This document shows positions 42,125 through 61,419 of a DNA stretch of 64,000 nt, one piece after another. The notes beneath the pieces are model-generated. The model made no database searches, was not told the origin of the DNA, and was given only the letters and a program-made list of their open reading frames with translations. This DNA comes from Pimelobacter simplex (GTDB taxonomy: Bacteria > Actinomycetota > Actinomycetes > Propionibacteriales > Nocardioidaceae), in the NCBI GenBank assembly GCA_016803235.1, contig JADCLI010000010.1, forward strand, positions 80,353 to 144,352. Reading direction: 5' to 3'. Position 1 is the first letter of the stretch, and every line of letters begins with the position of its first letter. The position numbers and the translations under genes were made by a program.

Positions 42125-42139
42125 TCCCGCTGAGTGGCG
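42125..42139 (-). promoter_or_regulatory. Dyad operator G, upstream of the LLM/NTF2 operon
   Basis: TCCCGCTGAGTGGCG on the plus strand; a weaker copy of the TYCCRST-S-ASYGGRA dyad seen seven times in this cluster. A TTGACT -10-like hexamer (minus strand, 42089-42094) is 30 bp away, the same spacing as at the other copies. Confidence 0.5.
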
Positions 42140-42212
42140 GCGTCGACCCGCAGCGGCGGTGAAGAGGGGGCTTGTGATGACCGTCTCTGCTTGCTACCTT
42201 CGGACCACCGGA

Positions 42213-42232
42213 AACTAGAATGTATTTCAGTT
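42213..42232 (+). promoter_or_regulatory. 20-bp pseudopalindrome upstream of the IclR gene
   Basis: AACTAGAATGTATTTCAGTT: arms AACTNNAAT and ATTNNAGTT around GT. It resembles the KstR-type TNNAACNNGTTNNA layout but with AAT/ATT instead of AAC/GTT. 20 bases before the IclR start; a candidate autoregulatory operator or a site for a steroid-responsive repressor. Confidence 0.5.
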
Positions 42233-42251
42233 TTGATCGAGGGGAGCAGTC

Positions 42252-43151
42252 ATGAGCGCTCAGATCGTCGAGCCGGTCGCCGAGGGTTCCGCCGCCGCGG
42301 GCCGCGACCTGCCGCCGTCCATGGTGGAGCGGATGTCACTGATCCTGGACGCGTTCGAGTCGCCGGCCGCACGGCTGACCCTCGAGCAGGTCTCGCGGGC
42401 CACGCACCTGCCCCGCTCGACCGCCCACCGGATCCTCGACCAGCTGGTCCGGCTGGAGTGGCTCTCCCACACCTCGTTCGGCTTCTCCCTCGGCCCGCGC
42501 TCGCTCGGCCTCGGCGGCGGCGGCCGTGCCGACACCGAGCTGCGGGAGGCGGCGGCGCCGTACCTCCACGAGCTGCAGGTGCGCACCGGCCTGGTCGCCC
42601 ACCTCGCCGTCCTCGACGGACCGGACGTGCGCTACCTCGACAAGATCGGCGGCCGCTTCGCCGTCAGGGTGCCCTCGCGCGTCGGCGGCCACGCCGCGGC
42701 CCACGCCACCGCGCTCGGCAAGGCGATCCTCGCCTGGCTGCCCGCGGAGCGGGTCGACGAGATCGTCGAGGCCCGGCCCGCCCGGCTGACGAAGTCCACC
42801 ATCACCGACCTCGCCCTGCTCCACCAGGAGCTGCACCGGGTCCGCGGCCGGCACGGCGTCGCCTACGAGCGCGGCGAGGCGCACCCCGACATCGCCTGCG
42901 TCGCGGCCGCGATCCGCAGCCCCGAGGGCGCGGTCGGCGCGGTGTCGCTGGTCGGCGACCTGCGCGCACCCGTCGAGCGGGTCGCCCCGCTGGTGCTCCG
43001 CGCCGCCCGGCAGACCGCGGCCGACCTCTTCCCCGAGCCCGAGCCCGCCCCGGCGCCCGTCCGCGCGTCCACGGCGCCCGCACAGCCCACCTGGTCGCCC
43101 GCCACCATGGACCGTCTCGTCGCCGACGCGGCCTCCGGCGCCTGGGCCTGA
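42252..43151 (+). CDS. IclR-family transcriptional regulator
   Basis: 299 residues. Winged helix-turn-helix (about 28-90: MSLILDAFESPAARLTLEQVSRATHLPRSTAHRILDQL) and a C-terminal IclR effector domain (YLHELQVRTGLVAHLAVL, ATALGKAILAWLP, GVAYERGEAHPDIACVAAAI). The last ~40 residues are Pro/Ala-rich. IclR regulators often control catabolic operons; the ligand is unknown. It is the only gene here carrying the AACTAGAAT operator upstream. Confidence 0.9.
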   Translation: MSAQIVEPVAEGSAAAGRDLPPSMVERMSLILDAFESPAARLTLEQVSRATHLPRSTAHRILDQLVRLEWLSHTSFGFSLGPRSLGLGGGGRADTELREAAAPYLHELQVRTGLVAHLAVLDGPDVRYLDKIGGRFAVRVPSRVGGHAAAHATALGKAILAWLPAERVDEIVEARPARLTKSTITDLALLHQELHRVRGRHGVAYERGEAHPDIACVAAAIRSPEGAVGAVSLVGDLRAPVERVAPLVLRAARQTAADLFPEPEPAPAPVRASTAPAQPTWSPATMDRLVADAASGAWA

Positions 43152-43168
43152 CCGCCCGATGGGCGGCC

Positions 43169-43705
43169 TCAGCCCCAGTGGTCGCCCCAGCCCCACAGGT
43201 CGGGCGCGACCTGCTCGTGCTGGTCCTCGATGCCGAACTTCCCCCGGAAGAACAGCATCGGGGTGGCGCGGTGCGGGGTCTCCAGCCGGGTGACCCGGCC
43301 GATGACGACGTCGTGGTCGCCGGCCACGACGACGTTCTCGACGGTGGCGTGCACCCGCATGAGAGTGCCGGGCAGGCTGGGGGTCCCCTCGGCGGAGAGC
43401 TCCCACGCGAGGTCCTCGAACTTCCGGCCCCGACTGGAGCCGAAGCGCTGGCACAGGTCCGCCTGGTCCTCGCCGAGCACGTTGACGGTGAAGCGTCCCG
43501 AGCGCCGGATCCGCGGCCAGGCGCGACCGCTGTGGTCGGCGCAGAAGAGCACGAGCGGCGGCTCGAGGGACACCGAGGCGAAGGACTGGCAGGCGAAGCC
43601 GACCGGCTCGCCGTCGTCCAGGCCGGTCACGATCGTCACGCCGGTCGCGAAGTTGCCCATCGCGGCCCGCATCTCCAGCGGGGACGGCTCGATTGCGGTG
43701 CTCAT
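43169..43705 (-). CDS. hsaB: Flavin reductase, HsaB-like
   Basis: 178 residues. Short-chain flavin reductase fold: MRAAMGNFATGVTIVTGLDDGEPVGFACQSFASVSLEPPLVLFC, FTVNVLGEDQ, and the end TPMLFFRGKFG that is characteristic of HsaB. HsaB supplies reduced flavin to the oxygenase HsaA in the hydroxylation of 3-HSA during steroid degradation. The ATG at 43705 has TAGCGT seven bases upstream (minus strand), and the dyad F at 43748. It is divergent from hsaD-kstD-hsaA-hsaC. Confidence 0.85.
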   Translation of the reverse strand: MSTAIEPSPLEMRAAMGNFATGVTIVTGLDDGEPVGFACQSFASVSLEPPLVLFCADHSGRAWPRIRRSGRFTVNVLGEDQADLCQRFGSSRGRKFEDLAWELSAEGTPSLPGTLMRVHATVENVVVAGDHDVVIGRVTRLETPHRATPMLFFRGKFGIEDQHEQVAPDLWGWGDHWG

Positions 43706-43712
43706 GTCGACG

Positions 43713-43718
43713 ACGCTA
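43713..43718 (-). promoter_or_regulatory. -10 element of hsaB
   Basis: TAGCGT on the minus strand, seven bases before the ATG at 43705; leaderless. The dyad F (43748-43762) is 29 bp upstream. Confidence 0.6.
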
Positions 43719-43747
43719 GCGACGGATCCTCCCGGAGGCGACGGGCG

Positions 43748-43762
43748 TCCCGCTGAGTGAGG
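43748..43762 (-). promoter_or_regulatory. Dyad operator F, upstream of hsaB
   Basis: TCCCGCTGAGTGAGG, a degenerate right half of the shared dyad. Centre 50 bases from the hsaB start; gap to the -10 TAGCGT is 29 bp. Confidence 0.55.
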
Positions 43763-43828
43763 GTGCGGGCCGCAGTCGGCCGCCGGGCGTCGTACGGCGA
43801 GCGGCGAATCGCCCGTACTGACAGGGCT

Positions 43829-43843
43829 TTCCGGTCACCGGGA
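43829..43843 (+). promoter_or_regulatory. Dyad operator E, upstream of hsaD
   Basis: TTCCGGTCACCGGGA, near-perfect dyad around C. Its centre is 51 bases before the hsaD GTG, and 30 bp separate it from the -10 TAGCGT. Same centre-to-start distance as dyad C before the SDR at 54179. No -35 consensus follows, which suits activation. Confidence 0.7.
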
Positions 43844-43873
43844 GGGACGCGGGCCCGTTCGCGCACGGCCACC

Positions 43874-43879
43874 TAGCGT
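43874..43879 (+). promoter_or_regulatory. -10 element of hsaD
   Basis: TAGCGT seven bases before the GTG at 43887; leaderless promoter of the hsaD-kstD-hsaA-hsaC operon. Confidence 0.6.
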
Positions 43880-43886
43880 GCGGAGC

Positions 43887-44783
43887 GTGACCGACCTGAC
43901 CCACGACTCCACGCGACGCGAGCTGGCCACCGACGCCGGCGTGCTGCGCTACCACGAGGCCGGCGACGGCCCCCCGCTGCTCATGCTGCACGGGTCGGGC
44001 CCGGGCGTCACCGGGTGGCGCAACTTCGGCGACAACCTCCCGGCCTTCGCCCCGCACTTCCGATGCCTGGTGCTGGAGCTGCCGGGCTTCGGCGTCAGCG
44101 ACACCACCGACCAGCATCCGATGGTGGCGGCGCTGCCGGCGGTGCAGCGCTTCCTCGACGGGCTCGGCCTCGACCGGGTCGACGTCATCGGCAACTCGAT
44201 GGGCGGCGGCGTCGCGACGCGGCTCGCGATCAGCCAGCCGGACCGGGTACGCCGGCTGGTGACGGTCGGCGGCGTCGGCCGCAACGTCTTCAGTCCCGCG
44301 CCGGGTGAGGGGATCAACCTGCTGGTCGAGTTCGTCGAGGACCCCACGCGCGACAAGCTCGTGGCCTGGCTCCGCTCGATGGTGTTCGACCAGACCATGG
44401 TCACCGACGAGCTGGTCGAGCAGCGCTGGGCGCTGGCCACCGAGCCGGACACCCTCGAGGTCGCCCGCCGGATGTACGGCCGCGACGCGATCGCCGCGGC
44501 CTTCGCCGGCGCCGGCAGCTCGGCCCACGCGACGCCCGGCTGGGCACAGTTCGACCAGATCAAAGCGCGCACCCTGCTCACCTGGGGCCGCGACGACCGG
44601 GTCAGCCCGCTCGACATGATGCTCATCCCGATGCGCACGATCCCCGACGTCGAGGTGCACGTGTTCGCCAACTGCGGCCACTGGGCGATGATCGAGCAGA
44701 AGCGCGCCTGGGAGCGGACCGTGCTGGCCTTCCTCACCGAGCAGGACCAGCAGGACGAGCAGCACGAGGAGGGCGCCGCGTGA
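43887..44783 (+). CDS. hsaD: Meta-cleavage product hydrolase HsaD
   Basis: 298 residues, alpha/beta hydrolase. HsaD hydrolyses the carbon-carbon bond of the steroid ring-cleavage product (DSHA). Oxyanion region LHGSGPGVTGW; catalytic Ser104 (GNSMGG), Asp237 (GRDDRVSP) and His265 (NCGHWAMIE). GTG 43887 is fixed by the -10 TAGCGT; an upstream GTG at 43878 lies in that element. Its stop overlaps the kstD start (44780-44783). Confidence 0.88.
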   Translation: MTDLTHDSTRRELATDAGVLRYHEAGDGPPLLMLHGSGPGVTGWRNFGDNLPAFAPHFRCLVLELPGFGVSDTTDQHPMVAALPAVQRFLDGLGLDRVDVIGNSMGGGVATRLAISQPDRVRRLVTVGGVGRNVFSPAPGEGINLLVEFVEDPTRDKLVAWLRSMVFDQTMVTDELVEQRWALATEPDTLEVARRMYGRDAIAAAFAGAGSSAHATPGWAQFDQIKARTLLTWGRDDRVSPLDMMLIPMRTIPDVEVHVFANCGHWAMIEQKRAWERTVLAFLTEQDQQDEQHEEGAA

Positions 44784-46501
44784 GTGCCTGGACCGACGAG
44801 TACGACCTCGTCGTCGTCGGCAGCGGTGGCGGTGGGATGACAGCCGCACTCGCGGCGGTCGACGCCGGCCTCTCGGTCGTCGTGATCGAGAAGGGCACGA
44901 AGTTCGGCGGCAGCACCGGGATCTCCGGCGGCGGCATCTGGGTGCCCAACAACCCGACCCTGCGCAAGGCCGGGCACGACGACTCCCGCGCGTCGGTGCT
45001 GGAGTACCTGACCACGATCACCGGCGGGAAGGTCCCCGCGACCCGGCTGGCGGCGTACGTCGACCACGGCCCGGCCGCGATGGCGCTCCTCGAGCGGTCG
45101 CGATGGGTGAGCTTCGCCTGGACCCGGGGCTACGCCGACTACCACCCCGAGCTGCCCGGCGGCCGGCCCGCGGGCCGGTCGATCGAGGCCAAGCCGTTCG
45201 ACACCCGCAAGCTGGGGGAGGACGAGGCCTACCAGCGGCCGAACAACATGAAGGGTCCGCTCGGGCTGTGGGTGACCGCGAAGGACTACCACGACCTCGC
45301 CATGGTCAAGCGGACCTGGCAGGGCCGTCGTGCCTCGCTGCGTGCGGCCTGGCGGGTCAGCTCGAACGCCGTCCGTCGCCGCCACATGGCGACCGGTGGC
45401 CGGGCGCTCGTCGCCCGGATGCGGATGGCGCTCAAGGACGCCGGCGTCCCGCTGTGGCTGGAGACGTCGATGACGTCGCTGGTCGTCGAGGACGGCCGGG
45501 TGACCGGTGTCGTCGCCGTCCGTGACGGGGCCGAGATCCGGATCCGGGGCCACAAGGGCGTCCTGCTCGCGGCCGGCGGCTTCGACCACAACCCCGCGAT
45601 GCGCGAGCGGTACCTCCCCGCCGGTGCGCGTCCCGACCACAGCCTCGGCGCCGTCGAGAACACCGGCGACGCCATCGTCGCGGGCCAGGCTGTCGGCGGC
45701 GCGGTCGACCTGATGGACGACGCGTGGTGGATGCCCTCGGTCACCCACCCGGCCGGTGCCACCATCCCCCTGGTCTCGGAGCGGGCGATCCCCGGCCAGG
45801 TCATCGTCGGGTCCGACGGACGCCGGTTCACCAACGAGGCATCGCCGTACGTCAACTTCGTCCACGACCAGCTCGCCAGCGGCAACGAGAAGGCCTGGCT
45901 GGTGATGGACTCGCGGGCCCGTTCGCGCTACCCGTTCGCGCAGATCCTGCCCGGAGCCCCCTTCCCGCAAGGGTTCTACGACCAGGGGATCGTGCACCGC
46001 GCCGACACCGTGGCGGCCCTGGCGGCGGCGATCGGCGTACCGGTGGACGCGCTCTCGGCGACCGTCGAGCGGTTCAACGGCTACGTCCGCGCCGGCAAGG
46101 ACGAGGAGTTCGGCCGCGGCGAGAGCGCCCACGACCGCTACTACGGCGACCCGACGCTGGCCAACCCGAACCTGGACCTGATCGACCGGGCGCCGTACTA
46201 CGCCGTGCGGATCGAGGTGGGCGACCTCGGCACCAAGGGCGGGCTCGTCACCGACGACCGCGGCCAGGTGCTGCGCGAGGACGGCTCGGTCGTGGCCGGT
46301 CTGTACGCGACCGGCAACTGCGCCGCGTCGGTGATGGGCAACGACTACGCCGGGCCCGGCGCCACGATCGGCCCCTCGATCGTCTTCGGCTACCTGGCCG
46401 CGCGCCACGCGGCCGGCCTCTCCGACCACCGGGAGGACCCGCCCGCCGCAGCCGCGCCGGGCGCCACCGTGCAGACCACCGCTGAGGAAGTGAGCTCGTG
46501 A
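44780..46501 (+). CDS. kstD: 3-ketosteroid delta1-dehydrogenase
   Basis: 573 residues. FAD site VVGSGGGGMTAALAAVDAG; steroid-site residues as in KstD proteins: DYHPELPGG (Tyr equivalent to Tyr119 in the Rhodococcus enzyme) and the C-terminal NDYAGPGATIGPSIVFGYLA (Tyr and Gly of the keto-binding pair). It introduces the 1,2 double bond that with KshA opens ring B. Operon with hsaD (four-base overlap) and hsaA. A Ser-rich C-terminal tail is not conserved. Confidence 0.85.
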   Translation: MSAWTDEYDLVVVGSGGGGMTAALAAVDAGLSVVVIEKGTKFGGSTGISGGGIWVPNNPTLRKAGHDDSRASVLEYLTTITGGKVPATRLAAYVDHGPAAMALLERSRWVSFAWTRGYADYHPELPGGRPAGRSIEAKPFDTRKLGEDEAYQRPNNMKGPLGLWVTAKDYHDLAMVKRTWQGRRASLRAAWRVSSNAVRRRHMATGGRALVARMRMALKDAGVPLWLETSMTSLVVEDGRVTGVVAVRDGAEIRIRGHKGVLLAAGGFDHNPAMRERYLPAGARPDHSLGAVENTGDAIVAGQAVGGAVDLMDDAWWMPSVTHPAGATIPLVSERAIPGQVIVGSDGRRFTNEASPYVNFVHDQLASGNEKAWLVMDSRARSRYPFAQILPGAPFPQGFYDQGIVHRADTVAALAAAIGVPVDALSATVERFNGYVRAGKDEEFGRGESAHDRYYGDPTLANPNLDLIDRAPYYAVRIEVGDLGTKGGLVTDDRGQVLREDGSVVAGLYATGNCAASVMGNDYAGPGATIGPSIVFGYLAARHAAGLSDHREDPPAAAAPGATVQTTAEEVSS

Positions 46502-47682
46502 TGAGTGACGTGCTGGAGAAGATCGAGGCCCGCGCGGAGGAGATCGCCGCGCTCGGACCGAGCAACGAGAAGCTGGGCCGGCTCGACGACCGGACCGCGG
46601 AGCTGCTGCGGGAGTCGGGCGTGATCCGGATGCTGCAGCCCGCGAAGTACGGCGGCGCCGAGGCGCACCCCGCCGACTTCGCCGAGGCCGTGATGCGGCT
46701 GGCGAGCCTGGACGGCTCGACCGGCTGGGTCGCCGGGATCGTCGGCGTGCACCCGTGGGAGATGGCGATGTGCGACCCCCGGGTCCAGGAGGAGATCTGG
46801 GGCGAGGACCACGACACCTGGATCGCCTCGCCGTACGCGCCGATGGGCGTCATCCGACCGGTCGACGGCGGCTACGTGTTCAACGGCCGCTGGCAGTTCT
46901 CGTCGGGCACCGACCACTGCGACTGGATCTTCCTCGGCGCCTACCTCGGCGACGAGAGCGGCGAGGCGATCATGCCGCCGCGGGTGCACCACGTGATCCT
47001 GCCGCGCTCGGACTACACGATCGTCGAGGACTCCTGGGACGTCGTCGGCCTGCGGGGCACCGGCTCCAAGGACATCGTCGTCAAGGACGCGTTCATCCCG
47101 GACTACCGCGTCGTCGAGTTCTCCCGGTTCACCGACGGCAGCCAGCCTCGCGACGCGGGGCTGACCAACCCGACGTACCACATCCCGTTCACCACGGCCT
47201 TCCCGCTCGGCATCACCTCGGCGGTCATCGGCATCGCCGAGGGCGCCCTCGCCGCGCACCTGGCCTACCAGCGCACCCGGGTGCAGATCACCGGCACCAA
47301 GGTGAAGGACGACCCGTACGTCCTCTACGCGATCAGCCAGGCGGCGGCGGAGATCCACGCCTCGCGGGTCACCATGCTCGACAACGCGCGCCGGTTCTAC
47401 GACAAGGCGGTCCGGGGCGAGGAGGTCAGCTTCGCCGAGCGGGCCGAGTCGCGTCGTACGCAGGTCTCGGCGGCGTGGCGCGCGGTCAACGCGATGGACC
47501 AGGTCGTCGCCCGCTCCGGCGGCAACGGCCTGCGGATGGACAACCCGATCCAGCGCTTCTGGCGCGACGGCCACATGGGCCTCGCGCACGCCATCCACGT
47601 GCCCGGCTCGGTGTTCCACGTGCAGTCGCTGACCGCGATGGACGTGACCCCGCCGCCCGGGCCGATGCTCTCGATGATCTGA
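46501..47682 (+). CDS. hsaA: 3-HSA hydroxylase, oxygenase subunit HsaA
   Basis: 393 residues, acyl-CoA-dehydrogenase-like flavin monooxygenase. It hydroxylates 3-HSA to 3,4-DHSA using reduced flavin from HsaB. Family stretches: LRESGVIRMLQPAKYGG, GSTGWVAGIVGVHPWEMAM, FNGRWQFSSGTDHCDWIFLG, WDVVGLRGTGSKDIVV, HMGLAHAIHVPGSVFHVQSL. ATG 46501 with GAGGAAGTGAG upstream; GTG 46498 would add one residue. It overlaps the kstD stop. Confidence 0.9.
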   Translation: MSDVLEKIEARAEEIAALGPSNEKLGRLDDRTAELLRESGVIRMLQPAKYGGAEAHPADFAEAVMRLASLDGSTGWVAGIVGVHPWEMAMCDPRVQEEIWGEDHDTWIASPYAPMGVIRPVDGGYVFNGRWQFSSGTDHCDWIFLGAYLGDESGEAIMPPRVHHVILPRSDYTIVEDSWDVVGLRGTGSKDIVVKDAFIPDYRVVEFSRFTDGSQPRDAGLTNPTYHIPFTTAFPLGITSAVIGIAEGALAAHLAYQRTRVQITGTKVKDDPYVLYAISQAAAEIHASRVTMLDNARRFYDKAVRGEEVSFAERAESRRTQVSAAWRAVNAMDQVVARSGGNGLRMDNPIQRFWRDGHMGLAHAIHVPGSVFHVQSLTAMDVTPPPGPMLSMI

Positions 47683-47714
47683 CCCTTCCCCGACTGAGAC
47701 GTGAGGAGACTGAC

Positions 47715-48626
47715 ATGACCGCGATCCGTGGCCTCGGCTACCTGATCGTGCAGAGCCAGGACCTGCCCCGCTGGCGCGAGCTGACGGTGGACTGCCTGGC
47801 GATGCAGGAGACCACCGGGCCGGTGGCCGACGGCCTCTACCTGCGGATGGACGAGCGGTGTGCGCGCCTCGTCGTCCTGCCGGGCGACGTCGACCGCGTG
47901 GTCGCCGTCGGCTGGGAGGTGCGCGACCAGTTCGGCCTCGCCGAGGTCGCGGCCGCGGTCGAGGCCGCCGGCGTGCCCTTCAAGGAGCTCGGCCAGGAGG
48001 AGTGCGACGAGCGACGGGTCGAGGCTGCGATCCGCTTCGACGACCCCGCCGGTACGCCGGTCGAGGTGTTCTTCGGCCCCGTGCTCGACCACAGCCCGGT
48101 CCTCACCGGCCACGGCCAGGCCTTCGTCACCGGTGAGCAGGGGATGGGCCACGTCGTCCTCCCGACCACCGCCGCCGAGGAGACGGTCGCCTTCTACACC
48201 GAGGTGCTCGACTTCCTGCCCCGTGGCGCGATCCGGATGGGTGCGGCCCTGCCGCCCCGACGGGTGCGGTTCATGGGCGTCAACCAGCGTCACCACAGCC
48301 TCGCGGTCTGCCCCGCCCCCCACGGCGAGGCGCCCGGCCTGGTGCACCTGATGATGGAGGTCGACAGCCTCGACGCGGTCGGCCGCGCGCTCGACAAGGT
48401 CAACAGGGCCGGCTTCTCGCTGTCGTCGACCCTGGGCCGGCACACCAACGACAAGATGGTGTCGTTCTACGTGCGTGCGCCCGGTGGCTGGGACCTGGAG
48501 TACGGCTGCGAGGGCGTGCTGGTCGACGAGGCGTTCTACACCGCCGAGGAGATCACCGCCGACAGCTACTGGGGCCACGACTGGTCCGGGTCCGAGCCGC
48601 TCGCCGCCTTCCTCCCGCCGGCGTGA
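47715..48626 (+). CDS. hsaC: Extradiol dioxygenase HsaC
   Basis: 303 residues, two-domain type I extradiol dioxygenase cleaving 3,4-DHSA next to the hydroxyls (meta cleavage). Iron ligands are His146 (MGHVVLP), His211 (VHLMMEV) and Glu262 (LEYGCEG), with the catalytic His in RHHSLAV. Strong match to the mycobacterial HsaC end region (TLGRHTNDKMVSFYVRAPGG, WGHDW). ATG 47715 after GTGAGGAGACTGAC. Its stop overlaps the next GTG. Confidence 0.93.
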   Translation: MTAIRGLGYLIVQSQDLPRWRELTVDCLAMQETTGPVADGLYLRMDERCARLVVLPGDVDRVVAVGWEVRDQFGLAEVAAAVEAAGVPFKELGQEECDERRVEAAIRFDDPAGTPVEVFFGPVLDHSPVLTGHGQAFVTGEQGMGHVVLPTTAAEETVAFYTEVLDFLPRGAIRMGAALPPRRVRFMGVNQRHHSLAVCPAPHGEAPGLVHLMMEVDSLDAVGRALDKVNRAGFSLSSTLGRHTNDKMVSFYVRAPGGWDLEYGCEGVLVDEAFYTAEEITADSYWGHDWSGSEPLAAFLPPA

Positions 48627-50137
48627 GCGACTCCGTCCCGGGCTCCGCCGAGGCCGGCGTCGTCACCGATGTGGTGGTCGTCGGCTTCGGCTGCGCCGGC
48701 GGTGCCGCGGCCCTCGAGGCGCGGCGCGCCGGCGCGTCCGTGGTCGTCCTCGAGCGTGCCAGCGGTGCGGGTGGCTCGTCCGCGCAGTCCGGCGGCGAGC
48801 TGTACCTCGGCGGAGGGACCGACGTGCAGCGCTCCCTGGGCTTCGACGACGACGCCGACAACATGTTCGCCTTCCTCCGCGCCGCGCTCGGCCCGCACGC
48901 CGACGAGGAGAAGCTGCGGCTCTACTGCGACGGCAGCGTGGAGCACTTCGAGTGGTTCTGCTCGTTGGGGATCGACTTCGAGAGGTCGCTCTACGACGCG
49001 CCCTCCTGGATGCCACCCACCACCGACGGGTTGATGTGGCTGGGTGAGAACGCCTGGCCGTACGACGAGCTCGCCCGTCCCGTCCCGCGCGGGCACCGGC
49101 CCGCCACCGGCGGCTTCGGCGGCTGGCTGCTGATGGACCGCCTGGTCGCGGCGTGTGCGTCCGCCGGGGTGGTGGCCGAGACCGACACCCGCGCGCTGTC
49201 GTTGGTGGTCGAGGCGGGTCGGGTGGTCGGCGTACGCGCCCGACGGTTCGGCGAGGACGTCACCTATCGCGCCCGGCGCGGAGTGGTCGTCACCACGGGC
49301 GGCTTCGCCGACAACGCCGCCATGCTCGCCGCGCACGCGCCGGACCTGCTCGGCCACGGCGTGGTGAGCGACGGGGGAGACGACGGCAGCGGCATCCTGA
49401 TGGCCCAGGCGGTCGGTGCCGCCGTACGCCGCATGGCGGTGGTCGAGGTCGCCTACACCGCGCTCCCGGCGCTCGCGTGCCGCGGCATGCTGGTCAACGC
49501 GCGCGGCGAGCGGTTCATCAACGAGGACGTCTACCCGGGGCTGTACAGCCACGCCGCGCTCCACGAGCCCGGCCCCTGCTGGGTGGTCGTCGACGCCCAG
49601 GCGCTCGAGGAGGTCGGCGACGCCGAGCTGTGGGGGACCGTGCCGTCGTACGTCGCCGAGACGATCGAGGAGCTCGAGGCCGACCTCGCCATGCCGGCCG
49701 GCTCGCTCGCCCGGACGGTGGCTGCCTACAACGCGGGTGCCGCTGACGGAGGCGACCCGCTGTTCCGCAAGAACCCGCGCTGGACGCGGGTGCTGACCGG
49801 TCCGTTCGCGGCGATCGACCCGCGGATCGGATTCCACAACCCGACCCACCGTGCCGCCCCCGGCGCCACCGGATTCGCGGGCTTCACCCTCGGCGGCCTG
49901 CACACGACCGTCGACGGCTCGGTCCTCGACCTCGCCGGTGCCGCCATCCCCGGCCTGTACGCCGCCGGCCGCGCCAGCTCGGGCATCCACGGCCACGGCT
50001 ACATCTCTGGCACCTCGCTCGGCGACGGCACGTTCTTCGGGCGCCGCGCCGGCCGCGCGGCCGCTGAGCTCGAGCAAGGCGAGGTGTCGCATGAGTTCGT
50101 CGAGCAAGGCGAGGCGTCGCGTGAGTTCGTCGAGTAG
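48623..50137 (+). CDS. FAD-dependent KstD-like flavoprotein with repeat-derived C-terminus
   Basis: 504 residues. Fumarate-reductase/KstD-type flavoprotein: VVGFGCAGGAAALEARRAGA, GVVVTTGGFADN, and the late FTLGGLHTTVDGSVLDLAGAAIPGLYAAGRASSGIHGHGYISGTSLGDGTFFGRRAG. Steroid dehydrogenase function is likely from context, but the substrate position is not assigned. After residue ~480 the protein ends in two 10-residue repeats, (E)QGEVSHEFV and EQGEASREFV, encoded by the 30-bp repeats at 50072-50131, with the stop in the third. It is coupled to hsaC (GTGA). Confidence 0.82.
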   Translation: MSDSVPGSAEAGVVTDVVVVGFGCAGGAAALEARRAGASVVVLERASGAGGSSAQSGGELYLGGGTDVQRSLGFDDDADNMFAFLRAALGPHADEEKLRLYCDGSVEHFEWFCSLGIDFERSLYDAPSWMPPTTDGLMWLGENAWPYDELARPVPRGHRPATGGFGGWLLMDRLVAACASAGVVAETDTRALSLVVEAGRVVGVRARRFGEDVTYRARRGVVVTTGGFADNAAMLAAHAPDLLGHGVVSDGGDDGSGILMAQAVGAAVRRMAVVEVAYTALPALACRGMLVNARGERFINEDVYPGLYSHAALHEPGPCWVVVDAQALEEVGDAELWGTVPSYVAETIEELEADLAMPAGSLARTVAAYNAGAADGGDPLFRKNPRWTRVLTGPFAAIDPRIGFHNPTHRAAPGATGFAGFTLGGLHTTVDGSVLDLAGAAIPGLYAAGRASSGIHGHGYISGTSLGDGTFFGRRAGRAAAELEQGEVSHEFVEQGEASREFVE

Positions 50138-50623: not shown

Positions 50624-50689
50624 GCAGAGGACGATGGGACATCCGTGTGTCGCTGTCGAACGGTCCTCCACAGGGCTTGCCTCGGGGAG

Positions 50690-50978
50690 CCTGAGGCGCT
50701 GCCCGAGCTCGTCGAGTAGCCCGAGGCGCTAGCCGAGGGCGTATCGAGACGCCTCGCCGCGTCTCGATACGCCGCTCGCTGGCGCTCGCGGAGGGCGTAT
50801 CGAGACGCCTCGCCGCGTCTCGATACGCCGCTCGCTGGCGCTCGCGACTACTCGACGAACTCAGGCGCTAGCCGAGGGCGTCTCGATACGCCGCTCGGCT
50901 GGCGCTCGCGGCTACTCGACGAGCTCTGGCGCTCGCGGCTACTCGACGAGCTCAGGCGCTCGCAGCTACTCGACGAGC
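50690..50978 (+). repeat. REP-like array on the right side of the GIY-YIG gene
   Basis: Runs from the end of the nuclease upstream region to the SDR stop. Holds the right 81-bp copy (50711-50791), a 56-bp tandem duplication (50735-50790 and 50791-50846), and four forward CTACTCGACGA cores (50848, 50912, 50939, 50966) within CTCGCGGCTACTCGACGAGC units. No gene. Confidence 0.88.
50711..50791 (+). repeat. 81-bp direct repeat, right copy
   Basis: Identical to 50189-50269, including the 15-bp hairpin. Same orientation as the left copy, so recombination between them would delete the nuclease gene. Confidence 0.92.
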
Positions 50979-51779
50979 TCAGGTACTGGAGGGCGGCAGG
51001 AGCTTCCTCGACTTCTCCAGTGCGTCGCGCACGAGTGCGGACCGGTCGTGGCCACTGCGGATCTCGGCGAGCCGCTCGTTCCCGGCGGCGACGTGGACCG
51101 GGCCGTCCTGGAGCAGGGACAACGCCTGGCGAGCGACGTCGTCGGGCTCGGAGACGTGCATGCCGGGGATGTCGAAGTTGAGACCGGCGCGCTCCATGGC
51201 GGGGGTGCGGGTGACGCCGAGGACGAACTCGAGGACGTCGACGTCGTGCTCCTGCATCTCCAGCCACAGGCCCTCGGCGAAGACCCGGCAGAACGACTTC
51301 ACCGCGGCATAGATGCTGATCTGGGCCGAGCCCATGTAGCCGGCCAGGGAGCCGATCAGCAGGATGCCGCCGCGGCGCCGCTCGCGCATCGGCGCGCCGA
51401 AGAGCTGGACGAGGGCGAGCTGGGCGGTGACGTTGAGGTCGATGACGCCCTGGAACCGGTCGAGGTCGCCGGTCACGAACTCGTGGCCGTAGCTGTTGGC
51501 GCCGGCGTTGAAGACGAGCAGGCCGACCTCGAGGTCATCGGTGACCTCGGCGACCCGCTTGATCGCGTCCGGGTCGGTGAGGTCCACCGCCAGGGTGCGT
51601 ACGTCGACCCCGAGCTCGCGGCACGCGGCGGCGGTCTCCTCGAGCGGGCCGGGCTTGCGGGCCAGCAGCACCAGGTTGAGGCCGGTCTCGGCGAGCTGCC
51701 GGGCGAAGGACGCGCCGACCCCCTCCGAGCCGCCGGCGATGACGGCCCAGGGGCCGTGGCGATCCAGGTCGACGCCCAT
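50979..51779 (-). CDS. Short-chain dehydrogenase of the kshA operon
   Basis: 266 residues. SDR core: VIAGGSEGVGASFARQLAE, LLVFNAGANSYG, active site YAAVKSF. Possibly a steroid or hydroxyacyl-CoA dehydrogenase by context; not provable. Last gene of the minus-strand operon kshA-109 residue protein-SDR; its ATG overlaps the stop of the 109-residue gene (ATGA). Its stop touches the REP-like array. Confidence 0.85.
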   Translation of the reverse strand: MGVDLDRHGPWAVIAGGSEGVGASFARQLAETGLNLVLLARKPGPLEETAAACRELGVDVRTLAVDLTDPDAIKRVAEVTDDLEVGLLVFNAGANSYGHEFVTGDLDRFQGVIDLNVTAQLALVQLFGAPMRERRRGGILLIGSLAGYMGSAQISIYAAVKSFCRVFAEGLWLEMQEHDVDVLEFVLGVTRTPAMERAGLNFDIPGMHVSEPDDVARQALSLLQDGPVHVAAGNERLAEIRSGHDRSALVRDALEKSRKLLPPSST

Positions 51780-52108
51780 CAGGCGTGCACCTCCGTGTCG
51801 TACTGGTCGGGATGGTGATCGGGATTGGTCTTGAGCGGCTCGTCGTCCACGACGTCCAGCAGGCCGCGGACGGCGGCCTCGCGGATCGCGTCGCGCAGGG
51901 CGGCGCAGCCGGTGAAGGTGGCGCCGTTGGGCCCCGGCCTCGGGGACGAGGCCCGCCGCTCCATGCAGGCCGCCAGTGCGTCGTCGTTCCACTGGATGCT
52001 GGTCTGGTCCCACGAGCTCTTCCGTGCCTCGACGACCGCCCCGCAGGTCCCGCACGAGACGGGCTGCATGGGGGCGTCGTCGAGCCGGACGTCGGGCCGG
52101 ACGGCCAT
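51779..52108 (-). CDS. 109-residue four-cysteine protein coupled to kshA
   Basis: Cys19, Cys22, Cys48 and Cys68 (C-x2-C-x25-C-x19-C) may bind zinc or an Fe-S centre; the middle part has SSWDQTSIQWND and the end KTNPDHHPDQYDTEVHA. No family recognised. ATG overlaps the kshA stop and its stop overlaps the SDR start, so it is made with KshA and the SDR. An electron-transfer or chaperone role for the Rieske protein is only a guess. Confidence 0.65.
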   Translation of the reverse strand: MAVRPDVRLDDAPMQPVSCGTCGAVVEARKSSWDQTSIQWNDDALAACMERRASSPRPGPNGATFTGCAALRDAIREAAVRGLLDVVDDEPLKTNPDHHPDQYDTEVHA

Positions 52109-53265
52109 CAGACCGGCTGGCCCGAGGCGGCCGCCCTCTTGGCGATGTTCTGCTCGACCTCGTGGCGCCAGGCCTCGTTGGGCTTCGTGGTGTCGATCTC
52201 GAACTCGAAGCGGTCGGTCATCTCGGGCTTCACGTCGGCGACGTCGACGTAGAACTGCTCGTACCAGCGGCGCAGCTGGTAGACGGGACCGTCCTCCTCG
52301 CACAGCAGCGGGTTCTCGATCCGCGCCTTGTTGCGCCAGATCTGCACGTCCTGCTCGAACCCGATCCGGATGAAGTCGCCCAGCTTGCGGGCGGTCGCGG
52401 TCGCGGCCTCGTCATCGACGCCCGCTGGCTTCTTCGTCATGATCCCGTACTGCAGCACGAACGAGTTCGCGTCGATCGGGTAGTGGCAGTTGATCAGCGT
52501 CGTGGGCATGTCGTTGCCGTCGCTGTAGTGGTAGGTGACGTCGTCGATCATGAACGACGGGCCGTAGTACGCCGCCGTGGACGTCGTGCCGGTGCTCTTC
52601 GGGCCGTTGCCGCTGTTCTGCGGGCGGGCGACGTCCTCGCGGCCCTGGCCGGTCATCAGCTGGGTGGCGACGGTGCCCTCGAAGATGTTCTTGAAGTACG
52701 TCGGGAAGGTGAAGTGCACGTAGAAGAAGTGCGCCATGTCCACGACGTTGTCGACGATCTCGCGGCAGTTGGAGCCCTCGATCCTCGTGGTGTACCAGAC
52801 CCAGTCGGTCCACTCGGGGTTGTCGTAGCCCTCGATCCGCGGGATGACGGCGTCCTCGGTCGGCGGATTGCCCTCGGGGTCGTTCCAGACGAAGAGCATG
52901 CCGTCCTGGGTCATCGTCGGCCACGCGGCGGTACGGGCGCGCAGCGGGACCCGGCGGGCGTAGGGGATCTGCTTGCAGCGGCCGTCGCCGCCCCAGCGCC
53001 AGTCGTGGAACGGGCAGGCGATCTCGTTGCCCTTGACCTCGCCCTGCGACAGGTCGCCACCCATGTGCCGGCAGTACGCGTCGAGCACGTTGATCGCGCC
53101 GTCCTCGCCCGCGAAGACCACGAGCTTCTGGCCGAACGCGTTGACCTGGTGGGGCTTCCCGTCGTCGAAGTCGCGGACCAGGCCCAGGCAGTGCCAGCCA
53201 CGGGCGAAGCGGGTGGGCGGCGGACCCGACTCGATGTGGCGGACCTCGTCTCCGACTGCGGTCAT
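52108..53265 (-). CDS. kshA: 3-ketosteroid 9alpha-hydroxylase, oxygenase KshA
   Basis: 385 residues, Rieske non-haem iron oxygenase. Rieske ligands Cys65/His67 and Cys84/His87 (CRH...CPFHDW); mononuclear iron His179 and His184 in DMAHFFYVHF, with an Asp later in the protein. KshA hydroxylates C9 so that, with KstD, ring B opens. The reductase KshB is not in the window. ATG 53265 has GGGGAGAT upstream; the dyad A (53381) and a CAGACT -10 (53344-53349) precede it. Confidence 0.9.
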   Translation of the reverse strand: MTAVGDEVRHIESGPPPTRFARGWHCLGLVRDFDDGKPHQVNAFGQKLVVFAGEDGAINVLDAYCRHMGGDLSQGEVKGNEIACPFHDWRWGGDGRCKQIPYARRVPLRARTAAWPTMTQDGMLFVWNDPEGNPPTEDAVIPRIEGYDNPEWTDWVWYTTRIEGSNCREIVDNVVDMAHFFYVHFTFPTYFKNIFEGTVATQLMTGQGREDVARPQNSGNGPKSTGTTSTAAYYGPSFMIDDVTYHYSDGNDMPTTLINCHYPIDANSFVLQYGIMTKKPAGVDDEAATATARKLGDFIRIGFEQDVQIWRNKARIENPLLCEEDGPVYQLRRWYEQFYVDVADVKPEMTDRFEFEIDTTKPNEAWRHEVEQNIAKRAAASGQPV

Positions 53266-53380
53266 GTGCGGATCTCCCCTCGAGGATTCGTCGCGCCGGT
53301 GCGTGCCGTGGGGGTACGCCGGGCGCGGATGTCTGGTCCGGCGAGTCTGTCCGCCGCCGTACGACGGCCGGTGCCGCCGG

Positions 53381-53395
53381 TCCCACTCACCGGAA
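53381..53395 (-). promoter_or_regulatory. Dyad operator A, upstream of kshA
   Basis: TCCCACTCACCGGAA. A CAGACT -10-like hexamer on the minus strand (53344-53349) is 31 bp away. 46 bp from operator B in the divergent kshA-TetR region. Confidence 0.6.
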
Positions 53396-53426
53396 GGGTC
53401 GTGACGCCCGATCCACCGGTCCGGGG

Positions 53427-53441
53427 TCCCACTGACCGGTA
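53427..53441 (+). promoter_or_regulatory. Dyad operator B, upstream of the TetR gene
   Basis: TCCCACTGACCGGTA. A weak -10 GACCAT (53472-53477) follows after 30 bp; the TetR start is at 53507 with GGAGGGAG before it. Suggests autoregulation. Confidence 0.6.
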
Positions 53442-53506
53442 ACATGCGACGCGATCGCCCCCGTCTGGTCCGACCATCGGGACGCAGCCACCGGAGGGAG
53501 TCAGCA

Positions 53507-54136
53507 GTGCCACGGATCGCCGAGGGCAGGCCCGCGGCCAAGCCGAGCTCGACCGTCCAGAAGGACCGCTACCAGCGGATCCTGCGGGCGGCCGCCAAGC
53601 TCGGCGCCGAGCACGGCCTCGAGCACGTCCAGATGAACGACGTCGCCAAGCAGGCGAACGTCGCCATCGCCACGCTCTACCGCTACTTCCCGTCGAAGGT
53701 CGACCTGTTCAGCTCGGTGATGCGCTGGCGGGTGGGGGAGTACGACCAGCAGTCCGACCCCGTCGCGGTGGCCGACCCCGCAGCCGGCGTCGCCGACCTG
53801 CTGATCCGGATCAGCCGCGAGATGGCCCGGATGCCGAAGCTGTCGCTGGCGATGATCCAGGCCAACAGCCAGGCCTACGCGATGGGCTCCCAGGAGTCGG
53901 CCTTCGACGACGTGCGCTTCGCGCGGATCGTCCAGCGCGCGGCCGGCATGACCGACGTGACCGAGGAGGGTGAGCGGCAGATCCGGCTGATCGTCTCCTG
54001 CTGGTTCGGAACCCTGGTCTCCCTGCTCAACAACCGGTTCTCGATCGACGACGCCGAGGACGACATCCGGGCCGCCTGCGCGCTGCTGCTGCGTCCCCTC
54101 GACGACGGAGCACCCGCCACTCCCACTGACCGGTGA
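53507..54136 (+). CDS. TetR-family transcriptional regulator
   Basis: 209 residues. Helix-turn-helix at about 20-66 (RYQRILRAAAKLGAEHGLEHVQMNDVAKQANVAIATLYRYFPSK), and an effector-binding helical domain. GTG 53507 is fixed by GGAGGGAG ten bases upstream; an ATG at 53444 would place the start in the dyad region. It is flanked by the shared dyad on both sides (B before it, C overlapping its last codons), so it is the first candidate for the factor that reads the site. Confidence 0.9.
   Translation: MPRIAEGRPAAKPSSTVQKDRYQRILRAAAKLGAEHGLEHVQMNDVAKQANVAIATLYRYFPSKVDLFSSVMRWRVGEYDQQSDPVAVADPAAGVADLLIRISREMARMPKLSLAMIQANSQAYAMGSQESAFDDVRFARIVQRAAGMTDVTEEGERQIRLIVSCWFGTLVSLLNNRFSIDDAEDDIRAACALLLRPLDDGAPATPTDR
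54121..54135 (+). promoter_or_regulatory. Dyad operator C, upstream of the SDR at 54179
   Basis: TCCCACTGACCGGTG at the 3' end of the TetR gene. Centre 51 bases before the SDR start and 30 bp before the -10 TAGTCT, the same centre-to-start distance as dyad E. Confidence 0.65.
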
Positions 54137-54165
54137 TCGCGGCGGCCCCGGAGCGCGATCGTCCC

Positions 54166-54171
54166 TAGTCT
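54166..54171 (+). promoter_or_regulatory. -10 element of the SDR at 54179
   Basis: TAGTCT seven bases before the ATG at 54179; leaderless. Confidence 0.6.
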
Positions 54172-54178
54172 CCGGGCC

Positions 54179-54925
54179 ATGCAGAGGTTCAGCGGGACCA
54201 ACGTCGTCGTCACCGGCGCCGCGTCGGGCATCGGCCAGGCCACGGTCGTGCGGCTGGTCGCCGAGGGCGCGGCCGTGGTGGCCCTCGACCGCGACGCCGT
54301 GGGCCTCGCCGACACGGTGGCGACGTCGGTCGGCACCGGCCGGGTCGCCACCGCGGTCGTGGACGTGACCGACGAGGCCGCGGTGGTCGCCGCGGTCCGG
54401 GCCGCGCACGCCGACCTCGGCAGCATCGAGGTCCTCGTCAACGTCGCCGGCGCCCACCGCACCACCCCGATCGGGTCCCTGTCGGTCGCCGACCTGCGGG
54501 ACCTCTTCGAGATCAACCTGGTCGGCACGGCGGTCTTCTGCCGTGAGGTCGTGCCGCTGCTGCCCGACGGCACCGGTGTGATCGTCAACGTCGCCTCGAC
54601 GTCCGCGGCCCACGGGAACCCCTACATGTCGGCGTACTCCGCGTCGAAGGGCGCCGTGCTCGCCTTCTCACTGAGCCTCGCCGCCGAGCTGGTCGGTCGC
54701 GGGATCCGGGTCGTCCCGCTCTCGCCGGGCACCGTCGACACCCCGCTGACCCGTGGGGTCGCGGTCGAGCCGGGCCTCGACCTCAGTGCCTTCGACCGGA
54801 TCCGCTCGCCCCTCGGCCCGGCCCGTCCCGAGCAGATCGCGGCCGCGATCGCCTTCGCCGCCTCGCCCGACGCGTCGTACCTCACCGGCCTCGACCTGCG
54901 AGTCGACGGCGGCTCCCACATCTGA
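54179..54925 (+). CDS. Short-chain dehydrogenase/reductase
   Basis: 248 residues. Classical SDR: VTGAASGIGQATVVRL, central VNVAGAH, YSASKGA active site, and the C-terminal SYLTGLDLRVDGGSH. It belongs to the steroid or side-chain group by neighbours; the substrate cannot be named. First of SDR-SDR-MaoC-thioesterase, four genes on one strand. Confidence 0.87.
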   Translation: MQRFSGTNVVVTGAASGIGQATVVRLVAEGAAVVALDRDAVGLADTVATSVGTGRVATAVVDVTDEAAVVAAVRAAHADLGSIEVLVNVAGAHRTTPIGSLSVADLRDLFEINLVGTAVFCREVVPLLPDGTGVIVNVASTSAAHGNPYMSAYSASKGAVLAFSLSLAAELVGRGIRVVPLSPGTVDTPLTRGVAVEPGLDLSAFDRIRSPLGPARPEQIAAAIAFAASPDASYLTGLDLRVDGGSHI

Positions 54926-54950
54926 TCACCCCGACAGCACGGAGGAATCC

Positions 54951-55727
54951 ATGTCCCGCACCATCGCCGTCACCGGTTCCGCCTCCGGGATCGGCGCCGC
55001 GCTCACGAGGATCCTCGAGGCCCGTGGCGACCGCGTCATCACCGTCGACCGGGTCGACGCGGACCTCGTCGCCGACCTCGCCACCGCCGAGGGCCGGGCG
55101 GCCGCCGTCGCCGGCATCACCGAGCGGTGCGACGGGGTCCTCGACGGCCTGGTCACCTGCGCCGGCACCTCGGTCCCGAGCCCGCTGATGGTCGAGGTCA
55201 ACTACTTCGGCACCGTCGAGCTGGTGCTCGGCCTCCAGTCGGCGCTGGCCGCGTCGAAGGCCGGCCGGGTCGCGGTCGTCGGCTCCATCTCCGGCACCCA
55301 GCCCAACGACCCCGAGCTCGTCGAACTCCTCCTCGCCGGCCGTACGACGGCCGCCACCGACCGCGCAGCAGCCCTGGTCGAGGAGGACGCACCGACCCGG
55401 ATCTACCCCTCCACCAAGGCGGCCCTCGCCCGGTGGGCACGCGCCACCTGCGTCGCGCCCGGCTGGGCCGATGCCGGCGTACCCCTCAACGTGATCGCCC
55501 CCGGCGTGATCCTCACCCCGATGAGCGCCGGCCTGATGGATGACCCGAGGATGCGCGCCGTCATGGACGCGGCCGTGCCGATGCCCCTCAACGGCTACGC
55601 CGAGCCCGAGGCACCCGCCGAGCTGCTCGCCTGGCTGGTGAGCGAGGCCAACAGCCACGTCACGGGCCAGGTGATCTACGTCGACGGCGGTGCCGAGGCG
55701 ACGCTGCGCCCGGCCGAGCACTACTGA
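54951..55727 (+). CDS. Short-chain dehydrogenase/reductase
   Basis: 258 residues. Cofactor site VTGSASGIGAALTRIL, central VTCAGTS, active site YPSTKAALARW. A long insertion around 115-150 (PNDPELVELLLAGR) is of the carbonyl reductase/3alpha-hydroxysteroid dehydrogenase type. ATG 54951 is preceded by CACGGAGGAATCC. Same operon as the preceding SDR (25 bases). Confidence 0.87.
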   Translation: MSRTIAVTGSASGIGAALTRILEARGDRVITVDRVDADLVADLATAEGRAAAVAGITERCDGVLDGLVTCAGTSVPSPLMVEVNYFGTVELVLGLQSALAASKAGRVAVVGSISGTQPNDPELVELLLAGRTTAATDRAAALVEEDAPTRIYPSTKAALARWARATCVAPGWADAGVPLNVIAPGVILTPMSAGLMDDPRMRAVMDAAVPMPLNGYAEPEAPAELLAWLVSEANSHVTGQVIYVDGGAEATLRPAEHY

Positions 55728-55739
55728 GCGGGGGCCCGG

Positions 55740-56612
55740 ATGCCGATCGACCTCGCCACCGCACTCGCCGCCCCGCCGGCGCTCCGCACCATCACGTGGA
55801 CCCGGCGCGACGTGCTGCTCTACCACCTCTCGCTCGGCGCCGGCCGGCACGCGGACGTCGACCCCGAGCTGGCCTACACCTTCGAGCGCGACCTGCAGGT
55901 GCTGCCGACCTTCGCGGTCGTCGCGGGCAGGACGATCTCGGCAGGCGACGAGCAGGGCTCCCCGGCGATGCGGATGCCCGGCATCGACGTCGACCTGCGC
56001 CGGGTCCTGCACGGCGGGCAGGCACTCAGCGTGCACCGGCCGATCCCCGCCTCCGGCGCCGCCGAGCTGAGCACCCGGGTCGCCGACGTCTGGGACAAGG
56101 GCAAGGCCGCCGTGGTGGTCCTCGAGCACCGGGTCTCGGACGCCGACGGTCCGCTGTGGACCGCCCGGATGCAGGTGTGGGCGCGCGGCGAGGGCGGTTT
56201 CGGCGGCGAGCCGGGACCCGACACGACCTGGCAGGCACCGGACCGCGCTCCCGACCACGTCCTCGACAGCCCCACCGACCCGGGCCAGGCGCTGCTCTAC
56301 CGCCTCAACGGCGACCTCAACCCGCTGCACGCCGACCCGGCCTTCGCCGCGTCCGCCGGCTTCGACCGGCCGATCCTGCACGGTCTCGCCTCGTACGGCA
56401 TCGTCGCGAAGGCACTCGTCGACGGGCTCCTGGACGGCGACGCCACCCGGCTGCGCAGCATCGCGGTCCGCTTCGCCGGCACGCTGGTGCCGGGGGAGAC
56501 CATCCGCACCTCGGTCTGGGGCGACGGCGACCGGCTCGTGCTGGCGGCGTACTGTCCCGAGCGGGGCGACCAGCCGGTGCTCAGCCACGCTGTCGCAGAG
56601 GTGGCCCGGTGA
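55740..56612 (+). CDS. MaoC-family dehydratase (double hot dog)
   Basis: 290 residues, like the hydratase part of peroxisomal 17beta-HSD4. Active-site region GDLNPLHADPAFAASAGFDRPILHGLASYG (Asp, His). It hydrates enoyl-CoA, probably a steroid side-chain or ring CoA ester in this context. Its stop overlaps the thioesterase GTG (56609-56612). Confidence 0.88.
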   Translation: MPIDLATALAAPPALRTITWTRRDVLLYHLSLGAGRHADVDPELAYTFERDLQVLPTFAVVAGRTISAGDEQGSPAMRMPGIDVDLRRVLHGGQALSVHRPIPASGAAELSTRVADVWDKGKAAVVVLEHRVSDADGPLWTARMQVWARGEGGFGGEPGPDTTWQAPDRAPDHVLDSPTDPGQALLYRLNGDLNPLHADPAFAASAGFDRPILHGLASYGIVAKALVDGLLDGDATRLRSIAVRFAGTLVPGETIRTSVWGDGDRLVLAAYCPERGDQPVLSHAVAEVAR

Positions 56613-57256
56613 CGTCGCCCGGGCTCACCGAGCTCACCGCCCGCCCGGACGACTCGGGGATCGACACCGCGGTGGGCGCGGTACGCCGCCTCGCGGCTGC
56701 GCTCCTCGCCGCCGGCGGCCGGGTCGACCTCGACCTCGACGACCTGGCGCGCCGGCTGACCGCGATGGCCGGCGAGGTCGAGGAGCTGGCGCCCGAGCTC
56801 GCCGACCGGATGGTCGACATGTGGTCGGGGGAGGGCGTCACGCGGCACGACCCGGTCACCGGGCCGGAGAACGCCATTGCGCCCCCGCTGGTGCTCTCCG
56901 CCGAGCCGGACAGCCCGGACGGTGCCGTGTCGGGCACGGTGAACCTCGGCATCTCCTACCAGGGACCGCCGGGCTGCGTGCACGGCGGGATCAGCGCGCT
57001 GCTGCTCGACCACACCCTCGGCGTCGCCAACGCGCACGCCGGGACGTCGGGCATGACCGGCACCCTCACGCTGCGCTACGAGCGCCCGGTGCCGTTGCAC
57101 ACGGACCTCGTCGTGCGCGGCTGGCAGGAGCGGGTGGAGGGCCGCAAGATCTGGTCGCACGGCACCATCACGAGCGGCGACGAGGTGCTCGTGCGGGCCG
57201 AGGGACTGTTCATCGACAAGCACGTGGAGCGGCCCCGTCGAGGCCCTTCCCAGTGA
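56609..57256 (+). CDS. PaaI-type hot-dog thioesterase
   Basis: 215 residues. An N-terminal helical region of about 90 residues, then a hot-dog fold with CVHGGISALLLDHTLGVAN, GTLTLRYERPVPLHTDLVVRGWQE and an end GLFIDKHVERPRRGPSQ. It may release CoA from an overloaded pathway. Last gene of the SDR-MaoC unit; the shared dyad D overlaps its stop. Confidence 0.85.
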   Translation: MTSPGLTELTARPDDSGIDTAVGAVRRLAAALLAAGGRVDLDLDDLARRLTAMAGEVEELAPELADRMVDMWSGEGVTRHDPVTGPENAIAPPLVLSAEPDSPDGAVSGTVNLGISYQGPPGCVHGGISALLLDHTLGVANAHAGTSGMTGTLTLRYERPVPLHTDLVVRGWQERVEGRKIWSHGTITSGDEVLVRAEGLFIDKHVERPRRGPSQ

Positions 57257-57262
57257 GTGGGA
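57248..57262 (+). promoter_or_regulatory. Dyad operator D, upstream of the ABC transporter operon
   Basis: TCCCAGTGAGTGGGA: halves TCCCAGT and AGTGGGA around G, the most symmetrical copy. A TACGCT -10 (57294-57299) lies 31 bp downstream, so transcription would start near 57306. Confidence 0.65.
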
Positions 57263-57299: not shown

Positions 57300-57354
57300 G
57301 CCTCACGTCCTGGGGGAATGTGACCCCCGACACCGTCTGAAGGGATGCGCCCGG

Positions 57355-61414: not shown

Positions 61415-61419
61415 CCCAG

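Follow-up and report, generated by a model that had tools for sequence, protein, structure and literature searches.

Steroid catabolism in actinobacteria has been described mainly in terms of the repressors KstR and KstR2. Here we analyse a 15-bp dyad, TYCCRSTSASYGGRA, located before several operons of a steroid gene cluster of Pimelobacter simplex, and the regulator that may read it. The DNA is a stretch of 64,000 nucleotides, called the window below (G000:C1:80353-144352; the genome, G000, comprises 5.36 Mb, and C-numbers denote its contigs). The motif has been published before under the name Lcin1, for Nocardioides simplex VKM Ac-2033D, as a 15-bp palindrome, TCCCGGT[C/G]ACCGGGA, found before lithocholate-induced genes (PMC7593942). 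The lithocholate-induced cluster E of N. simplex contains a kshA gene with an Lcin1 site, and another site precedes the HsaEGF operon (PMC7593942); in our genome the dyad precedes an HsaE-like gene on C42. Compared with the text consensus, our sites fit the Lcin1 regulon by their sequence, the same palindrome standing before bile-acid genes and an HsaE-like gene. For the Nocardioides bile-acid genes the motif was found and the regulator left unproven; the TetR protein KR76_18060 was suggested, and a fixed distance to the -10 element is not among what we found reported in the accessible text (PMC7593942), whereas here an IclR-family protein is favoured.

Several other systems are close. A steroid-induced island of Pimelobacter simplex has a site for the TetR protein SRTF1 upstream of SRTF2, an IclR gene (PMC7062782). 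This is the order of regulators proposed here, with a 22-bp palindrome as the SRTF1 site. Of the motifs named Acin1-3 (PMC7807495), Acin1 is the SRTF1 site, and Acin2 or Acin3 could conceivably be the present dyad. KstR3 is described as a repressor in M. neoaurum (PMC10398937). Group-1 operators of the IclR family have the consensus GKTYCRYW3-4RYGRAMC, exemplified by the NdgR site KTYCRSMWYSYGRRM and the PobR site TTGTCCGATSATCGGACAR, and family members generally control their own gene and one or two adjacent operons (PMC8222616); about 15 spaced sites were found in our genome. Apart from SRTF2, no IclR regulator of this cluster was named in the literature searched, nor were the fixed spacing, the IclR assignment or the second dyad described below found there; subscription papers and supplements lay mostly outside that search. 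We regard the system as a probable IclR-family catabolic regulon. The reading that the dyad is the operator of the IclR protein encoded at 42252-43151, acting as an activator of the steroid operons, is given a probability of roughly 70%, judged from sequence comparisons.

The dyad and its distance to a promoter hexamer

A preliminary description of this DNA listed seven dyads, each followed by a -10-like hexamer, and all the 15-mers and all the hexamers were recovered, with gaps of 29-31 nt. On the minus strand, site 1 (42125..42139, one half degenerate) lies upstream of an LLM oxidoreductase gene (TTGACT at 42089-42094, gap 30), site 2 (43748..43762) upstream of an hsaB-like gene (TAGCGT at 43713-43718, gap 29) and site 4 (53381..53395; also checked in relatives) upstream of kshA (CAGACT at 53344-53349, gap 31). 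On the plus strand, site 3 (43829..43843) precedes hsaD-kstD-hsaA-like genes (TAGCGT at 43874-43879, gap 30; leaderless GTG at 43887) and site 5 (53427..53441) precedes tetR (GACCAT at 53472-53477, gap 30; the right end of the dyad also forms TAACAT at 53440-53445). Site 6 (54121..54135), on the same strand, is followed by SDR-SDR-MaoC-thioesterase genes (TAGTCT at 54166-54171, gap 30; leaderless ATG at 54179) and site 7 (57248..57262) by an Opp/Nik-type ABC transporter and amidase operon (TACGCT at 57294-57299, gap 31). The match to TYCCRSTSASYGGRA is exact at 43829, 53381 and 57248, with one mismatch at 53427 and two at 42125, 43748 and 54121. An xAxxxT hexamer occurs 29-31 nt downstream of six of the seven dyads; TTGACT (site 42125) and GACCAT (site 53427) are poor -10 hexamers. 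The distance of 51 from dyad centre to start codon, claimed earlier for 43887 and 54179, agrees with the coordinates, and hsaB is also leaderless, its ATG lying 7 nt past TAGCGT.

As a bare word the motif is weak. Within the window alone, 45 matches with up to three mismatches were found against 65 expected from shuffles, and TCCCRCTSAS occurred 6 times against 2.4 expected, a count reached by 4 of 100 shuffles. The whole genome contained 47 matches with at most one mismatch (5 of them in the window) and 7 for the reversed pattern. Every one of 59 genomes drawn, including genomes without an IclR of the 42252 type, had 9-57 matches, so the bare word is not specific. Because of this background, counts per genome were dropped as a measure of the regulon.

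The distance to the hexamer behaved differently. Among the 132 flanks of 66 sites, taken from 19 loci of relatives, NANNNT began at offset 29 in 9 flanks, at 30 in 42, at 31 in 22 and at 32 in none; elsewhere the figure was 2.4 per offset. In a deduplicated set of 163 sites, 90 had YANNNT 29-31 nt away on one side or both, against 3-18 in 18 control windows. This set (less than 80% identity over 175 nt) was drawn from loci of IclR-bearing genomes, the IclR of Nocardioides sp. SLBN-35 being unchecked, and takes in loci of our genome outside any steroid cluster as well as three 2-mismatch window sites added by hand. Left out were L001-L019, the loci L043, L119, L121, L129 and L133 from genomes with the TetR only (see below), and L055, L057, L065-L068, L074 and L075. 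In L043, L065-L068, L074 and L075 a single flank had the spacing at up to one mismatch, in L065, from a genome without the IclR; L055 and L057 had none at one mismatch and one each at two, and the TetR-only loci had none. Of 116 matches with at most one mismatch in three genomes lacking this IclR, 55 were examined; 4 of these had the spacing, against 0-5 in control windows (Fisher p 5e-11 against 90/163).

The combination of word and hexamer is specific, the peak at 29-31 in the loci of relatives standing well above the other offsets. The preliminary description had named frequent occurrence at random distances as the ground for giving up the regulon: the bare motif is indeed frequent everywhere, but the fixed distance was seen in IclR-bearing genomes and was missing from the three sampled without the IclR. 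The spacing rule also holds in other Nocardioides. Where the TetR is 40-60% identical to the one encoded at 53507, most fetched stretches that contain the kshA, tetR, ABC operon, hsaD operon, MaoC or iclR/LLM promoters keep the dyad there. The fixed spacing and its presence in relatives support the earlier proposal of a real regulon of the steroid cluster. Chance matches to a GC-rich palindrome would account for the hits in every drawn genome and for the low count of loose matches in the window, but given the spacing and the conservation this explanation has a negligible probability for the whole set; single sites can still be chance.

IclR 42252 and TetR 53507 as candidate binding proteins

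The best candidate for binding the dyads is the IclR-family regulator encoded at 42252..43151 (plus strand). Membership of the family is clear (HTH_IclR 43.8 bits, cut-off 22; IclR_C 118, cut-off 24). The preliminary description had instead put forward the KstR-like TetR regulator encoded at 53507..54136 (plus strand), and the published account likewise suggested a KstR3-like TetR for Lcin1 (PMC7593942). The protein encoded at 53507 belongs to the TetR family (TetR_N 57.6, cut-off 24; TetR_C_20 69.7, cut-off 26.5), and its matches were 3bjb (6.7e-43), followed by the sequence of the KstR structure (3.6e-20).

The distribution of the two proteins was surveyed in 293 genomes of the order (IclR by E<=1e-60, TetR by E<=1e-36). 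The IclR was present in 22 and the TetR in 26, all IclR genomes being among the TetR genomes. At up to one mismatch the dyad was found in 20 of the 22 IclR orthologue loci (3.8-3.9 kb) and in 8/8 paralogue loci. Spaced dyads also occurred beside IclR paralogues in stretches without a match to this TetR (tblastn E<=1e-15), namely on C29 of our genome, in a second cluster of G003, in G018 and in G036 (CANNNT only). In G051, which has three IclR matches, four of five stretches contained spaced dyads and the best TetR was 33% identical. In the four genomes with the TetR only (G034, G202, G210 and G276), no dyad with hexamer was detected near the TetR gene, one of them having a single bare match.

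At tetR itself, the distance between the start and a dyad is at most 140 nt in 19 of 27 TetR loci at up to two mismatches, and at up to three in all 23 loci from IclR genomes. Because dyad-like words stand at tetR in all of these 23, the regulon at least includes tetR. By script, the tetR promoter had a dyad-like word with NANNNT at 29-31 in 20 of the 23, the script having picked the kshA-side copy in the remaining three, and in none of the four TetR-only loci. A comparison of the dyad at up to one mismatch (20/22 IclR loci, 18/23 TetR loci) was rejected as a discriminator, there being no real difference once three mismatches were allowed.

The predicted recognition helices and the form of the motif point the same way. 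RS[ST]xHR was kept in all the IclRs printed from dyad loci, and an IclR paralogue on C41 of our genome with RSTTFR had no dyad at up to one mismatch within its 20-kb stretch. The TetR helix, VAIATLYRYFPSK, is unchanged between genomes with and without dyads and differs little from the helix of a KstR-like paralogue. In form the dyad resembles operators of the IclR family, being of odd length and sharing much of its core with the PobR and NdgR sites: compared by eye with the group-1 form TYCRYW3-4RYGRA, using degenerate codes, 12 of 13 core positions are compatible, the centre being S and not W. PobR has CCGATSATCGG (PMC8222616), and CCGATSACCGG occurs at some paralogue-locus sites here. Unlike PobR, PcaU and PcaR, the IclR stands among steroid genes rather than genes of aromatic catabolism, and it scores below the cut-off of their subfamily.

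On co-occurrence, paralogue loci, motif shape and recognition helices, IclR 42252 is favoured over TetR 53507 as the probable binder. That the TetR binds the dyad is unlikely, although it is present in all 22 IclR genomes and has the dyad near its gene in the loci counted above, and although the KstR3 orthologue of N. simplex, KR76_18060, is lithocholate-induced (PMC7593942). The absence of dyad with hexamer from the four TetR-only loci, the invariant helix, the spaced dyads of G051 and the difference between the dyad and KstR-type sites (ACTAGAACnnGTTCTAGT-like words) all speak against it, and the earlier choice of regulator was probably wrong.

NdgR is widespread in Actinobacteria, and in spite of this spread the spacing was absent from the three sampled genomes without our IclR. 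Binding by an unlinked NdgR-type regulator is for that reason very improbable, close as the NdgR motif is to the dyad (PMC8222616).

A number of observations weigh against the assignment to IclR 42252. Since each IclR genome in the survey also has the TetR, the latter is still a possible binder, and the two can be told apart only by the four TetR-only genomes and by the paralogue loci; weaker IclR relatives may exist in three of these four genomes, the search there having used E<=1e-60. The TetRs of G003, G036, G018 and our own genome, encoded elsewhere, could act in trans on the paralogue loci, and the C29 paralogue stretch also holds an unrelated TetR-family gene adjoining the dyad. Two further stretches with IclR paralogues (L072 of G036, IclR 57%; L031 on C49 of our genome, IclR 45%) have one site each, with no hexamer at 29-31, and the C41 stretch has one 2-mismatch site with a hexamer. 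The kshA paralogue stretch L071 lacks the dyad at up to one mismatch. No compensatory change between the dyad halves was detected beyond column composition, the halves varying independently. The PcaR/PcaU/PobR model TIGR02431, still the best NCBIfam hit of the IclR, gave 116.6 bits against a cut-off of 284.75. Finally, autoregulation by the TetR would equally give dyad-like words at tetR in 23/23 loci.

Promoter geometry and the iclR promoter

At the dyad promoters the dyad centre lies at about -50, and a -10 element is present and no -35 detectable. ATG or GTG follows the hexamer by 4-8 nt in 39 of 98 such promoters, compared with 3-19 in later 5-nt windows, indicating leaderless genes. TTGACA-like -35 elements were counted in 7 of the 98 and in 20 of 118 control promoters, neither set showing information there. 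The preliminary description had taken the missing -35 and the placement of the dyad to suggest activation. The absence is real, but as an argument it is weak, because the control promoters show no -35 either; the fixed spacing argues for activation. From this geometry we infer that the bound protein is an activator rather than a blocking repressor.

The case for repression by the same IclR, with an inducer freeing the promoters, comes from the family, which includes repressors and activators (PMC8222616), and from tetR, where by script the right end of the dyad overlaps a TANNNT in 13 of 19 loci. This overlap would fit repression there and counts against a purely activating role; tetR may be activated, blocked or both. 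At the other operons a gap of 29-31 nt separates the end of the dyad from the -10, which leaves both the -10 and the -35 position uncovered, and repression has no need of spacing so strict; a repressor at the dyads is distinctly improbable. The tetR dyad mostly ends in CGGTAnnnT, conserved past the dyad (TCCCACTSASCGGTAGCNTG-like; window 53427-53445 and L111-L137), which may be a second -10 under the bound regulator or an extra half-site. In the TetR-only locus L119, GGTAGCCTG is retained and the dyad is gone.

In the proposed mechanism of activation, an IclR dimer would bind some 50 bp before the transcription start, the end of the dyad being 29-31 nt before the -10, and would recruit or position RNA polymerase at promoters with a -10 but no visible -35, many of them leaderless. 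In this way it would activate the cluster's steroid operons, which are probably bile-acid operons, and further ones in trans.

The iclR gene appears to keep hexamers of its own, one -35-like and one -10, assigned by eye: TTGTGA (42172), 17 nt and TACCTT (42195), together 42172..42200 on the plus strand. Between this -10 and the start codon lies a second, distinct dyad, ACTAGAATGTATTTCAGT (42214..42231, plus strand), probably the operator of a KstR-type repressor. At up to three mismatches it was present at all 22 IclR orthologues, 15 of them with two copies, and at none of the 8 paralogues; at 0-1 mismatch it occurs once in our genome, at iclR. In L088-L102 the two copies are 45-69 nt apart, which suggests cooperative binding or a loop. 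KstR-like words similar to ACTAGAATGTATTTCAGT were seen in the searches, and a ACTAGAATGTATTTCAGT-like word (3 mismatches) lies just 5' of the TetR gene of the TetR-only genome G276. The layout is that of the KstR consensus, with AAT/ATT replacing AAC/GTT. The TetR encoded at 53507, for its part, resembles the KstR structure sequence and falls short of the KstR equivalog NF033703 (102.6 bits, cut-off 280).

The KstR-like dyad at 22/22 iclR promoters suggests a TetR repressor above the IclR activator. A KstR-type TetR, perhaps 53507 or KstR itself, would keep iclR repressed until released by a steroid or by the CoA ester of the steroid. We put forward tentatively, and with somewhat less than even confidence, a two-tier switch present in many Nocardioides: a KstR-type TetR would control only iclR, and the IclR would drive at least 15 or so scattered steroid promoters through a rigid arrangement of dyad, 30 nt and hexamer that replaces the -35, and would also act on tetR; paralogous IclRs under other TetR-type operators would read a near-identical dyad. 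The promoters of the IclR paralogues in L021 (C29), L103, L104, L106 and L110 carry different palindromes (AGCAAGTGCTTGCT; TACCTAGCAATTGCTTGGTAGGTT and variants), which resemble the KstR2 site, and each paralogue may sit under its own TetR repressor. If the dyad is indeed read by IclR, the activator of these clusters is identified together with its binding site and a rule for its promoters, the published suggestion of a TetR (PMC7593942) needs revision, and the regulon exceeds the norm of the IclR family in size and has an unusually strict promoter spacing.

Further sites and neighbouring genes

Our genome has further sites outside the window; of the 31 examined, 12 had YANNNT at 29-31 on a side, a few perhaps by chance, and the other 19 were taken as probable background. 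On C35 the spaced sites include ones upstream of a kshA paralogue and of a KstD-like gene, and on C29 ones upstream of a BaiCD-like reductase and of an Opp/Nik-type substrate-binding protein. Sites with poorer hexamers (GAGAGT, GAGGCT) precede the HsaE-like hydratase on C42 and an LLM oxidoreductase on C19. Of the genes in both groups, all but the LLM score under their curated NCBIfam cut-offs, and the call of kshA on C35 rests on 66% identity to the KshA of the window. At 51914 on C29 (L021) the dyad precedes another TetR-family gene (194 aa), unrelated to TetR 53507 at the search threshold. The TetR of Nocardioides sp. SLBN-35 is 90% identical to TetR 53507, and in this strain (L040) the dyads of the kshA-tetR pair are 56 bp apart, compared with 46 bp in the window, about one helix turn more.

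Among the window genes, the oxygenase of 3-ketosteroid 9alpha-hydroxylase, KshA (52108..53265, minus strand), was recognized by the Pfam domain KshA_C. The hsaD-like, kstD-like (44780) and hsaA-like (46498) genes (43887..47682, plus strand), as well as hsaB, were named after NCBIfam best hits, all scoring under the curated cut-offs. The thioesterase carries a Pfam domain named after RHA1_ro05818, presumably a gene of the Rhodococcus cholate cluster. The Opp/Nik-type ABC transporter and amidase (57345..62847, plus strand) could import and cleave conjugated bile salts. Between operons, at 50700-50990, the window contains dense GC-rich repeats with inverted pieces (CGTCTCGATACGCC, GGCGTATCGAGACG, CTACTCGACGAGCTC) that resemble a dispersed intergenic repeat.

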